Positions 16,897-61,005 of a DNA stretch of 64,000 nucleotides are shown here, in pieces. How positions within the stretch are numbered: the first letter of the stretch is position 1; each line of letters begins with the position of its first letter. Origin of the DNA: Candidatus Desulfopertinax cowenii (GTDB lineage Bacteria > Bacillota > Desulfotomaculia > Desulfotomaculales > Desulforudaceae). The position numbers were made by a program, and so were the translations under genes. The notes below the pieces were generated by a model. It ran no database searches, was not told the origin of the DNA, and worked only from the letters and a program-made list of their open reading frames with translations. The DNA lies in NCBI GenBank assembly GCA_001899445.1, contig MPOA01000003.1, forward strand, positions 62,001 to 126,000, read 5' to 3'.

Positions 16897-17124
16897 GTGA
16901 CCGGTAAGAAATTCGAAGAGGCGCTCCGGCGCCTGGAGGAAGTTGTACGCCGGCTGGAAAACGGTGACATCCCCCTGGAAGAAGCACTGGACCTGTTTTC
17001 CGAGGGCGTGGAGCTGGCGCGGTACTGTCACGGGATTTTGGACCAGGCCGAGCAGCACCTGCAGGTGTTGGCGGGGTTGGAGACGCTTCGGAATGACGGG
17101 CGGAGAGGGGACGGTGCATCGTGA
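16897..17124 (+). CDS. xseB: Exodeoxyribonuclease VII small subunit
   Basis: 75 aa, typical: KKFEEALRRLEEVVRRLENG followed by LEEALDLFSEGVELARYC. Small subunits wrap around the helical part of XseA. GTG 16897 is chosen because AGAAAGGA precedes it; earlier in-frame codons lie inside fchA. The stop overlaps the ispA start by 4 bases (GTGA). Confidence 0.93.
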   Translation: MTGKKFEEALRRLEEVVRRLENGDIPLEEALDLFSEGVELARYCHGILDQAEQHLQVLAGLETLRNDGRRGDGAS

Positions 17125-18014
17125 CGGATTTCCTGGCGCTGCTTTCCCGGAAGACAACCGTGATCGACGACGCGCTGGATAGGTACCTGCCGCCGGCGGA
17201 CGCTCACCCGCCGGTCATCAACGAAGCGGTACGGTACAGTGTATTCGCCGGCGGCAAGCGGCTCCGCCCGGCGTTGACCCTGGCCGCCGCCGAAGCGGCG
17301 GGCTGCGCCGAAAGGCGCGTACTGCCGGCGGCCTGTGCCATCGAACTGATTCACACCTATTCGCTAATCCACGACGACCTGCCGGCCATGGACAACGACG
17401 ACCTGCGCCGGGGAAAGCCTACCAGCCACCGGGTTTTCGGCGAAGCGGTCGCCATTCTGGCGGGTGATGCCCTGTTTACCCTGGCCTTCGAACTCCTGGC
17501 CCGGTGTGCCCGGGAAGAGGCTTTTGCGCCCAGACAGGTGCTGCAGGTGGTTGAGGAAGTTGCGGTGGCCTGCGGAACTTCCGGCCTGATTGGAGGACAG
17601 GTGCTGGACGTCGTGTCCACGGCCCGGGAGGTTGGGGAAGCCGAACTGGAGTTCATCCACCGGGCGAAAACCGGGACGCTGTTCCGGGCCGCGGTGCGCG
17701 CGGGGGCGCTCCTGGGGGGCGCGGCCCCGTTCACCCTGGAACGGCTGACTGAATTCGCGGAGTACTTCGGCCTTGCGTACCAGATCACCGACGACCTCCT
17801 GGACGTCACGGGGAACGTGGCGACCACCGGGAAACCAGTGGGCAGCGACGCTCGGAACCGGAAGCATACCTACGTGTCGCTGTTGGGCGCCGACGCGGCC
17901 CGCCGGCGGGCCGAACAGGCCTGCGCGAGAGCGTTAGCCGCGCTGGAAAGCCTGGGGTCGGAAGCGGATTTCTTTCGCTACGCCGTGCAATTCATCGCCA
18001 CCCGCAATTTTTAG
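17121..18014 (+). CDS. ispA: Polyprenyl synthase, farnesyl or geranyl diphosphate synthase type
   Basis: Condenses IPP with allylic diphosphates. 297 aa with GGKRLRPAL, the first Asp-rich motif DDLPAMDNDDLRRGKPT and the second DDLLDVTG, plus the KTGTLFRAAV region. GTG start overlaps xseB. It provides substrates to quinone and undecaprenol synthesis and is followed, after the OLE RNA and oapA, by dxs for isoprenoid precursor supply. Product chain length cannot be fixed from sequence alone. Confidence 0.92.
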   Translation: MTDFLALLSRKTTVIDDALDRYLPPADAHPPVINEAVRYSVFAGGKRLRPALTLAAAEAAGCAERRVLPAACAIELIHTYSLIHDDLPAMDNDDLRRGKPTSHRVFGEAVAILAGDALFTLAFELLARCAREEAFAPRQVLQVVEEVAVACGTSGLIGGQVLDVVSTAREVGEAELEFIHRAKTGTLFRAAVRAGALLGGAAPFTLERLTEFAEYFGLAYQITDDLLDVTGNVATTGKPVGSDARNRKHTYVSLLGADAARRRAEQACARALAALESLGSEADFFRYAVQFIATRNF

Positions 18015-18078: not shown

Positions 18079-18107
18079 TTGCCGCCACCACAGCGGTGTG
18101 CTATGAT
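18079..18107 (+). promoter_or_regulatory. Promoter for the OLE RNA
   Basis: TTGCCG (18079-18084), 17 bases, TATGAT (18102-18107) with an extended TGC just before it. It lies about 50 bases before the terminal stem of the OLE RNA. An imperfect inverted repeat (GCTTTAACCC with GGGGTTAAGC, 18040-18075) lies directly upstream without a T run. Confidence 0.6.
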
Positions 18108-18154
18108 AGCTTATGATTGATACCTAAATTTTTCAGAACATTGGAAATGATAAA

Positions 18155-18740
18155 TGGGTAAGTGACGCAGTATCCTAGTCGGAAACCCCTTTTTCAAAGG
18201 CGGGCCTAAAAATCCGCCGCGGGCACATCGATGAAGTTCCTGGTGCTGGCTGCCGACGCCCAGTCGGGGGTTGGTGCTGGGAGTTAAGGGGATGGGGCGA
18301 CCTGCAAGGGCATGCAGGCGTTGACCCCGCCCCCGTGGAGACCCAAGTGCGTGGGGAATGCGGCGAACTACGGCTTGGGGTATAAACCTGTACGTGGGGA
18401 AAGCTTGCGTACAGTGTAGCCTGCCTTGAGTGGTAATGGTGGATTCCCGGTAAAAGCATCCCTGACGTGGGGGCCCTCGCCGAGGGGGTGTGGGGTGAAA
18501 CCATTACTGCAAAAGAGGCTAGGAAAAGGGGTCTTCCGCCGAGGAAAACTCCTAGGCTGTCCTGAAAGGGGCAGGTCGGGGATTGCAGTGTAGTCTAAGT
18601 GGTAGTCCAGTACCGGTATCGGCAACGTTCCGGGGACGGCCTTAAAGGGAAACCGCCCGTACGGCGACGGCGGGTGGCGGTTCGGGAAAACCTACTAGAC
18701 CTAAGCTACAATATTTACCCGGCCTGCTGTCACTTACCTC
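18155..18740 (+). ncRNA. ole: OLE RNA (ornate large extremophilic RNA)
   Basis: About 590 noncoding bases between ispA and the OapA-like gene, the classic OLE position. The ends pair: GGTAAGTGACGCAG (18157-18170) matches CTGCTGTCACTTACC (18724-18738) with one bulged T, forming the closing stem. The interior is rich in GC hairpins, for example GGGCCCTCGCC/GAGGGGGTG near 18471-18492, and has no plausible ORF with a ribosome site. OLE RNAs form membrane ribonucleoproteins with OapA and help cells tolerate stresses such as ethanol, cold and magnesium excess in the studied Halalkalibacterium. Exact 5' and 3' ends are estimated. Confidence 0.85.
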
Positions 18741-18767
18741 AAAACCAACTTAGAGGTGTCCAGGTGA

Positions 18768-19355
18768 TTGAGTAACGGTAACGGCCGACCATTTGGCCGG
18801 CACCTGTTGATCGTGGGCCTGGGAACCCTGAGCGCCACCATTGTGATCAGCCTGATCACCGAGACGCTCGTCCGGCAGATGGCGCAGATCTGGCTGGCCC
18901 TGTCTCTCCTGGTATTAATTGTCTTCGTCGGCGTGCTTTTTGATATCATCGGCACCGCCGCGGCCGCTGCGCGGGAGGCTCCTCTGCACGCCAAAGCGGC
19001 GAAAAAAGTTTTTGGCGCGCGGCAGAGTGTGTACCTGGTAAAAAACCGGGACAAAGTGGCAAATTTTACACAGGACGTGATCGGCGATATTACTGGCATT
19101 ATCGCCGGGGCCTTGGGAATTACTTTGATGTTCCAGGTGGCCGTGCTTCGTCCGGGGATAGATGCCCTCGTTTTCAACGTGCTGATCACGGCGATGATCG
19201 CTTCGGCCATCATTACCGGCAAAGCCTACGGTAAAAGGGTCGCGGTAGAAAAGGCCGAAGGGATAATCTTTTTGGTGGGCAAGATTCTGGCCGGTGCCGA
19301 GAAGCTCTGTTTCTGGCGTGCAAGACCTGGTAATCGCAGTAACAAATTCCGTTAA
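18768..19355 (+). CDS. oapA: OLE-associated protein OapA
   Basis: 195 aa membrane protein with four predicted helices (about 10-30, 38-62, 108-128 and 132-150) and a basic cytoplasmic loop between helices 2 and 3: [21 protein letters not shown], followed by [15 protein letters not shown]. This layout and its position just after OLE RNA and before dxs match OapA, which binds OLE RNA at the membrane. TTG start with AGGTG words upstream (18752-18766). The C-terminal tail is basic ([12 protein letters not shown]). Confidence 0.82.
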
Positions 19356-19369
19356 AGGATGGATTGTTA

Positions 19370-21274
19370 TTGAGTAAGCTGCTTGACACCGTCAACGAGC
19401 CTGCGGACCTGTGCAGGTTGACTCCGGACCAACTCGACAAACTGTCCACCGAAATTCGCCAGCTTATCATAGAAACCGTTTCCCGCAACGGGGGGCACCT
19501 GGCGCCGAACCTAGGCGTCGTGGAACTAACCCTGGCACTGCACTACGTGTTCAACGCGCCGGAGGATCGGCTGGTCTGGGATGTGGGCCACCAGTGCTAC
19601 GTGCATAAAATCGTCACCGGGAGGCGACCGCAGTTTGCCAGTCTCCGGCAGCTGGGGGGATTGAGCGGTTTTCCAAACCAGAACGAGAGCCCCTACGACT
19701 GTTTCGGCACCGGGCACAGCAGCACTTCGATTTCCGCCGGTCTGGGCATGGCCGTGGCCCGGGACTTAAGCGGCGGCACCCGGAACGTGGTAGCGGTAAT
19801 CGGGGACGGGGCGCTGACGGGCGGAATGGCTTACGAAGCGCTCAACCACGCCGGTCACCTCGGCAAACGCCTCATCGTGGTGCTTAATGACAACGAAAGG
19901 TCCATTGCCAAGAACGTGGGGGCGATAGCGCACTATCTGTCCCGGTTGCGCACCGACCCGATGTATTCCCGCAGCAAGGAAGAGTGTGAATCGCTGTTGC
20001 GGCGCATCCCGGCCGTTGGCCCCCGGGTGCTGCAGTGGGTGGAACGCGTCAAGGACAGCCTGAAGTACCTGGTGGTTCCCGGGATGCTGTTCGAGGAACT
20101 GGGATTCACCTACCTGGGCCCGATCGACGGGCACAACATCCCCGCAATGATCAACGTCTTCCGGCAGGCGCAGGCGGTCGAAGGCCCCGTGGTGGTGCAC
20201 GTGCTCACCCGCAAGGGCAAGGGCTACCCGCCCGCTGAAAACCACCCCGGCAAGTTTCACGGCATCGGCCCCTTCGACCTTAAAACTGGCAAGACACCCC
20301 CGGTAAGCCGGGTTTCGTATACCGAAGTCTTCGGGAAGACCATCGTCCGGCTGGCCCGAGAGAACGACCGGATCCTGGCAATCACCGCGGCCATGACCAC
20401 GGGCACCGGTCTCGCGGAGTTCGCCCGGGAGTTTCCGGAACGGTTCTTTGACGTGGGGATCGCCGAGCAACATGCGGTCACCCTGGCCGCGGGCCTGGCG
20501 GCCGAGGGTTACCGGCCGGTAGTGGCGATCTACTCCACCTTCCTGCAGCGGGCTTACGACCAGGTTTTGCACGACGTCTGCCTGCAAAAGCTCCCGGTGG
20601 TGTTTGCCCTGGACCGCGGTGGGCTGGTCGGCGAGGACGGCCCGACCCACCAGGGCTTGTTTGATTTCTCCTATCTGCGTTCCATTCCCAACATGGTGAT
20701 CGCGGTCCCCAGGGACGAAAACGAGCTGCAGCACTTGCTGAAGACGGCGGTGGAGCACAAGGGGCCGATCGCCGTGCGTTATCCACGGGGGAAAGGCACA
20801 GGGTGCGCCTTGGACCAGGAATATCGGGTGCTGCCCATCGGCCGGGCCGAGGTGCTGAGGGACGGCGACGATATCACCCTGTTGGCCGTCGGGAACATGG
20901 TGTCGCTGGCGTTGGAAGCCGCAGGGCAGCTGGCCGACCGGGGAATAAACGCCGGCGTGATCAACGCCCGCTGGGTGAAACCCCTGGACGAGGAGTGCAT
21001 CTGCCGCCACCTTTCGCAGACGCGCCGCCTGATCACCATCGAGGAACACGTGGTGAGCGGGGGCTTCGGCAGTGCCGTCCTGGAGATGTTGGCCCGCCGG
21101 GGGCTTTCCGACGTCCGGGTCCGCTTGATCGGCATTCCAGACTGCTTCGTCGAGCACGGAGCGCCACACCTGCTGCGCGCCAAGTACGGTCTGACCGTGG
21201 ACCACGTGGTGGAAATCGCCGAAAGCGAAAAGCGGAAGCGGGCCAAGTTAAAGCTCGCGACGCGTTCGAGGTAA
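19370..21274 (+). CDS. dxs: 1-deoxy-D-xylulose-5-phosphate synthase
   Basis: First enzyme of the MEP isoprenoid pathway: pyruvate plus glyceraldehyde 3-phosphate to DXP, using TPP. About 634 aa with [20 protein letters not shown], the TPP/Mg motif [18 protein letters not shown], and the pyrimidine-domain segment [21 protein letters not shown] 19370 is chosen over TTG 19364 for better spacing from AAAGGATGG. Downstream tlyA, nadK, argR and recN form the usual Firmicutes cluster. Confidence 0.94.
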
Positions 21275-60839: not shown

Positions 60840-60850
60840 GGTTGAAGTAC

Positions 60851-61005
60851 AGCTAGCGCTGAGTTCTCAGGATGCGAGAAGCGGGGGACCCACAAATTGG
60901 GGTGAATCCCGGTGCCGGACCGGTGCCGGGTAGGGTTACCTTCCGGCCCGAACCCGTCAGCTAACCTCGTAAGCGTGGGAAGACGGAGCGTAGGCAGCCT
61001 TGAAA
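60851..61005 (+). promoter_or_regulatory. c-di-AMP riboswitch (ydaO-yuaA type)
   Basis: The conserved blocks appear in order: GCGGGGGACCCA (60881), TTGGGGTGAATCC, TAGGGTTACCTTCC, GCCCGAACCCGTCAGCTAAC, CTCGTAAGCG. These are the hallmarks of the ydaO/yuaA aptamer, which binds two c-di-AMP molecules and normally turns genes off at high ligand. A terminator follows at 61032. Exact ends are estimated. Confidence 0.92.

Follow-up and report, generated by a model that had tools for sequence, protein, structure and literature searches.

The window, the whole 64,000-nucleotide stretch of DNA analysed here, carries a genuine, complete and full-length OLE RNA with an adjoining oapA gene. We consider it very likely that this is a standard locus of the OLE ribonucleoprotein (RNP), composed of the RNA with a 10-bp terminal helix, a conserved promoter and oapA, with oapB and oapC at other sites of the genome, and that it is expressed and functions as proposed below. 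OLE belongs to the largest bacterial RNAs lacking a known biochemical job, so that each solid comparative constraint on it is helpful. Possible novelty lies in the comparative results: a promoter found phylum-wide, a TTG start in oapA, a stand-alone form of the RNA and the copies in Atribacteria. All coordinates without an accession or locus label are positions of the window, and the features of the locus lie on the + strand.

RESULTS

Identity and Integrity of the OLE RNA

An earlier note, made from the letters of this DNA alone, had named an OLE RNA here and had proposed the Rfam covariance model as a check. As determined by cmscan against Rfam 15, the sequence at 18146-18749 matched RF01071 with 501.4 bits (E=4e-144) over model positions 1-616 of 616, a score about ten times the gathering score of 50 bits, and the identification thus held from end to end. 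The covariance-model match along the entire RNA represents its conserved secondary structure, the terminal helix being counted separately. The whole genome was searched and contained one OLE copy. The palindrome GGGCCC (18471-18476), read from the sequence and the alignment, falls within the loop of a long arm, P9 of the published structures, at which two OLE RNAs kiss according to PMC12265935. No phage match was found that would indicate a phage origin of the locus. Elsewhere in the window, a c-di-AMP riboswitch (RF00379, 96.6 bits) lies at 60847-60990; c-di-AMP has been tied to OLE in print, speculatively (PMC11332333).

The earlier note had also described a 14-bp closing stem, GGTAAGTGACGCAG with CTGCTGTCACTTACC. 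To examine this stem, we aligned 66 OLE RNAs of the class with MAFFT and counted the outer and the inner pairs as two hypotheses. The ten outer pairs, formed by a 5' arm, GGTAAGTGAC (18157-18166), and a 3' arm, GTCACTTACC (18729-18738), showed strong covariation: standard pairs occupied 95.2% of the cells, 9 of the 10 pairs had changes in both arms, and not one of the five measures was attained in 500 shuffles. When the partner was slid by 1-3 columns, pairing fell to 23-54%. The four inner GCAG/CTGC pairs (18167-18170 with 18724-18727) showed covariation no better than that of shuffles, required a bulged base and competed with the helix that Rfam gives to the 3' strand. These results indicated that the true length of the stem is 10 bp and that the four inner pairs are unsupported. 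The 10-bp helix is absent from the Rfam annotation of RF01071. The published numbering places P1 in the same terminal domain of OLE (PMC12265935), and the helix identified here is probably P1 of that model.

A Conserved Promoter Precedes ole

Upstream of the RNA, we found a -35 element, TTGCCG (18079-18084), separated by a 17-nt spacer from the -10 hexamer TATGAT, which is preceded by TG and so forms part of the extended -10 element TGCTATGAT (18099-18107; the whole promoter spans 18079-18107). The region contains two promoter-like sites, compared with an expectation of 0.8 from shuffles, a result that is weak alone. We therefore rely on its conservation. A scan for TGnTA[TGC]nAT within 118 nt 5' of the RNA revealed an extended -10 in 58 of 60 class loci, compared with 5% of dinucleotide shuffles; it mostly ends 30-60 nt 5' of an invariant GCAGTAT box and is usually accompanied, 17-18 nt away, by a -35 of the TTG type. 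In the other classes of the phylum, the element was present in 22 of 26 scored loci (8% in shuffles). Because it is conserved class-wide, the site in front of ole here stands above chance, and since the promoter distances vary and the flanks differ, this conservation is not simply residual sequence identity. The earlier proposal that the module has an extended -10 promoter of its own was thereby strengthened. The element would be a sigma-A-type extended -10 promoter, predicted to be used in cells, with a transcription start near 18114. No terminator was predicted on the + strand between OLE and oapA/dxs, so that transcription would be expected to read through into both genes. Conservation of this promoter across the class means that ole expression is not merely slaved to the isoprenoid operon.

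Gene Neighbourhood

The placement of the module between ispA and dxs, as first noted from the sequence, was confirmed by the gene order ispA, OLE, oapA, dxs, followed by a TlyA-type rRNA methyltransferase gene. The upstream neighbour, ispA (farnesyl diphosphate synthase; 17121-18014), matched NCBIfam FPPsyn with 350 bits, and the downstream neighbour, dxs (1-deoxy-D-xylulose-5-phosphate synthase; 19364-21274), matched TIGR00204 with 858 bits. The wider cluster is the one usual for ole, with Asp23/YqhY-like, nusB-, xseA-, folD-, argR- and recN-like frames; Asp23 and the cyclodeaminase were confirmed by Pfam, and the other genes of the wider cluster (nusB, xseA, argR and recN) are named by inference from sequence.

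oapA Begins with TTG throughout the Class

The oapA gene (18768-19355), supported by its open reading frame, a profile and an AlphaFold model, encodes 195 amino acids including a DxxxD motif and begins with TTG (18768-18770), 19 nt past the end of the Rfam OLE match. A ribosome-binding site, AGAGGTG (18752-18758), was read from the sequence, and GAGGTG occurs at the same site before oapA in most relatives. When the start was chosen by its closeness to the conserved protein and the quality of its ribosome-binding site, it was TTG in all 62 class loci scored. The same was true of all 24 class loci with a single ATG, GTG or TTG after an in-frame stop. Among unambiguous starts of neighbouring genes in the class, TTG accounted for 27 of 48 in dxs and 2 of 12 in ispA; outside the class, ATG is about as frequent as TTG in oapA itself. 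The 62 starts are not 62 independent events, because the genomes are related; the neighbouring genes, which share the same history, do vary in start codon. The simplest reading would be that a low rate of OapA translation is under selection. A literature search on the oapA start codon found no publication mentioning oapA. If confirmed, the invariant UUG would suggest selection on the ratio of RNA to protein, which is relevant to the dispute over the stoichiometry of the OLE complex.

OapA Is a Predicted CNNM-like Membrane Protein

The earlier note had described a four-helix OapA-like protein after the RNA, and the motif, helices and fold reported here agree with that description. The DxxxD motif (residues 103-107; 19074-19088) was present in every OapA scanned, and both D103 and D107 were invariant among 40 aligned OapA proteins. 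The AlphaFold model, built with 40 sequences, was all-helical (pLDDT 76, pTM 0.62), with helices at residues 9-37, 41-67, 94-127 and 133-161 as well as shorter ones. The best Foldseek match in the PDB was MtCorB (7m1t; probability 1.00, TM 0.55), followed by the CorC membrane domain (7cfg and 7cff), and the probabilities across the three matches ranged from 0.84 to 1.00. The Foldseek E-values were poor (best 0.22), and the CNNM/CorB/CorC chains were the only credible PDB family. Homology to a solved structure at the level of direct sequence comparison was rejected: phmmer gave no match and a profile search gave only one match, at chance level.

Against the Pfam CNNM profile, OapA scored 19.6 bits, under the curated cut-off of 28.4, and 10 of the 40 aligned OapA proteins matched CNNM at E up to 0.01. 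Plain membership in CNNM was ruled out by this score, and we therefore file the protein as OapA, CNNM-related and a non-member; NCBIfam holds no model for OapA or OapB. Since the Foldseek E-values are poor and the CNNM score lies below its cut-off, the link to transporters rests on consistent weak matches together with the literature, in which the OapA-CNNM relation has already been published (PMC11332333). From the model, OapA is predicted to be a four-helix CNNM-like membrane protein.

The Genome Also Encodes OapB and OapC

A search for oapB and oapC, which the earlier note had suggested, found both in the same genome. OapB is a KOW-type protein with a 95-amino acid core, encoded between infA and map, and matches PDB 7k9b, "OLE-associated protein B" (E=9e-9). 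OapC is encoded by an L7Ae-like gene that lies between rpoC and rpsL, whose best PDB matches are YbxF (E=6e-12), the protein since renamed OapC (PMC9723947); in addition, the genome has a distinct YlxQ-like gene. With OapB and OapC both encoded outside the locus, no member of the known OLE RNP set is missing. We found no Mg2+ exporter of the MpfA/CorC type in the genome, which contains no CNNM protein besides OapA and no CorC_HlyC domain. This makes the locus a useful example, because here all the known protein partners occur in a genome that lacks a CNNM exporter. Across the class, CorC_HlyC proteins were found in 35 of 113 genomes, mostly alongside OLE. As the two coexist in many genomes, the data do not support a model in which OLE strictly replaces MpfA within the class, and the published anticorrelation of OLE and MpfA is loose there.

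Distribution of OLE and OapA

OLE was found in 101 of 113 class genomes and OapA in 100 of 113; in an even draw from the phylum, 217 of 299 genomes carried OLE. The instance here is ordinary, given that 101 of the 113 class genomes carry OLE. Among named relatives, Desulforudis MAGs are the nearest. Some class genomes without OLE or OapA are fragmented assemblies. Neither OLE nor OapA was present in four nearly complete genomes of one genus (G074-G077) or in G047, a 97% complete genome of the same family as the one studied here. G047 also lacks CorC_HlyC, so its loss of OLE is not explained by an MpfA-type replacement. That a relative this close has lost ole and oapA, and that the genome carrying the window measures only 1.78 Mb, would fit a decaying remnant, that is, a real match whose RNP no longer works in a small genome. 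We give this reading very little credence. The full 616-position match shows no truncation, the oapA frame, promoter and terminal helix are intact, and OapB and OapC have been retained, all of which argues against decay.

Outside the Bacillota, full OLE RNAs (466-491 bits) were observed in six MAGs named Atribacteria or Atribacterota (L129-L134), the taxonomy of these contigs being that of the record names. Their gene order is mscL, OLE, oapA; in L133, for example, OLE lies at 1559-2147 and oapA at 2348-2887. A published OLE survey set aside non-Bacillota matches as possible transfer or assembly errors. For the Atribacteria copies, synteny common to six MAGs argues against assembly error. If they are genuine, models in which OLE extends out of the cytoplasm toward the Gram-positive cell wall would have to accommodate other envelopes. 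Separately, the sole plasmid match to the locus was an OLE-like sequence in two pieces (51% of the query, 71.6% identity) at 200853-201467 of NZ_AP023421.1, a 504-kb replicon of Pusillibacter faecalis that is conjugative according to PLSDB.

Stand-alone OLE Copies

In members of one family (f5) and in G069, we found OLE RNAs that have their own promoter and closing stem and no adjoining oapA. A GC-rich hairpin followed by a T run, the form of an intrinsic terminator, lies directly 3' of the closing stem. The four of these RNAs included in the alignment are shortened and have no P9 arm. The loci are L042/L085, L044/L081, L052/L082, L069/L080, L083 and L084, of which L080-L085 correspond to G032, G030, G069, G031, G029 and G026, respectively. 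In G069, and by the OapA search in G026, G027, G028, G032 and G033, oapA lies on a different contig; G030 contains both a stand-alone OLE and a normal ole-oapA pair. The neighbours of L081 and L084 resemble obg and spo0B. The promoter and terminator of the stand-alone copies mean that OLE is able to exist as a free transcript. OLE variant 1 also has shortened P7-P9 stems (PMC11332333), so the literature may already include the short form.

These copies bear on whether OLE, rather than being a trans-acting RNA, might act in cis as a very large leader through which oapA and dxs on one transcript are regulated. In favour of a leader, OLE here follows a promoter and no terminator separates it from oapA and dxs, and dxs is downstream of ole in 66 class loci. 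Terminated copies without oapA beside them occur in two lineages, however, and OLE has been published as a stable membrane RNP (PMC12265935). The leader interpretation is therefore improbable.

DISCUSSION

Taken together with published work, the anatomy of the locus suggests how a standard OLE RNP would be expressed and would act. Transcription would begin near 18114, yield the OLE RNA and continue into oapA and dxs; the mature RNA would be trimmed, with protection by the terminal helix, and the UUG start would lead to OapA synthesis at a low rate. According to the literature, two OLE RNAs would then dimerise, OapA would anchor the dimer in the membrane, and OapC would sit on the kink turn and OapB on P13. 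The particle would tune the Mg2+/Mn2+ balance and stress responses, a job done elsewhere by MpfA-type exporters (PMC12286853, PMC12265935, PMC9723947 and PMC10898510; OLE function is also discussed in PMC11332333).

The same anatomy is compatible with OLE being a ribozyme of undiscovered chemistry, for which metal balance would be merely a downstream effect. Fernando and Breaker point to the size, conservation and structure that OLE shares with known ribozymes (PMC11332333), but the OLE papers cited here report no chemical activity, and we regard this as rather unlikely, though deserving serious consideration. More tentatively than for the standard RNP locus itself, we suggest as a possibility that ole and oapA form a separate expression unit with an inbuilt dosage rule, in which a strong extended -10 would give much OLE and an obligatory UUG little OapA; that this unit is splittable, as ole alone with a terminator; and that it is native to Atribacterota, regarded as a two-membrane lineage, as well as to Bacillota.

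Comparison with Known Systems

The locus shares with the OLE RNAs of Halalkalibacterium halodurans and Clostridium all 616 model positions, the P9 arm with its GGGCCC loop, oapA directly downstream, and isoprenoid and other typical genes nearby. PMC12265935, citing Puerta-Fernandez 2006, describes the H. halodurans cluster as one polycistronic RNA; the locus studied here has a conserved, dedicated promoter immediately 5' of ole. Such a promoter is compatible with polycistronic transcription and would mean that ole can also be expressed alone.

OapA shares four long helices, with weak sequence and fold similarity, with the CNNM (DUF21) domain of the MpfA/CorB/CorC Mg2+ transporters. Unlike those proteins, OapA is without CBS or CorC_HlyC domains and has a TTG start in every class gene scored, and its DxxxD motif is absent from CNNM domains (PMC11332333).

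Compared with OLE variants 1 and 2, known from the TANB77 and RF39 clades (PMC11332333), the OLE of the window is the full-length form. The stand-alone copies of its relatives, lacking P9, recall variant 1; they differ from both variants in having a terminator and no adjoining oapA, and in G030 the two forms of OLE occur together.
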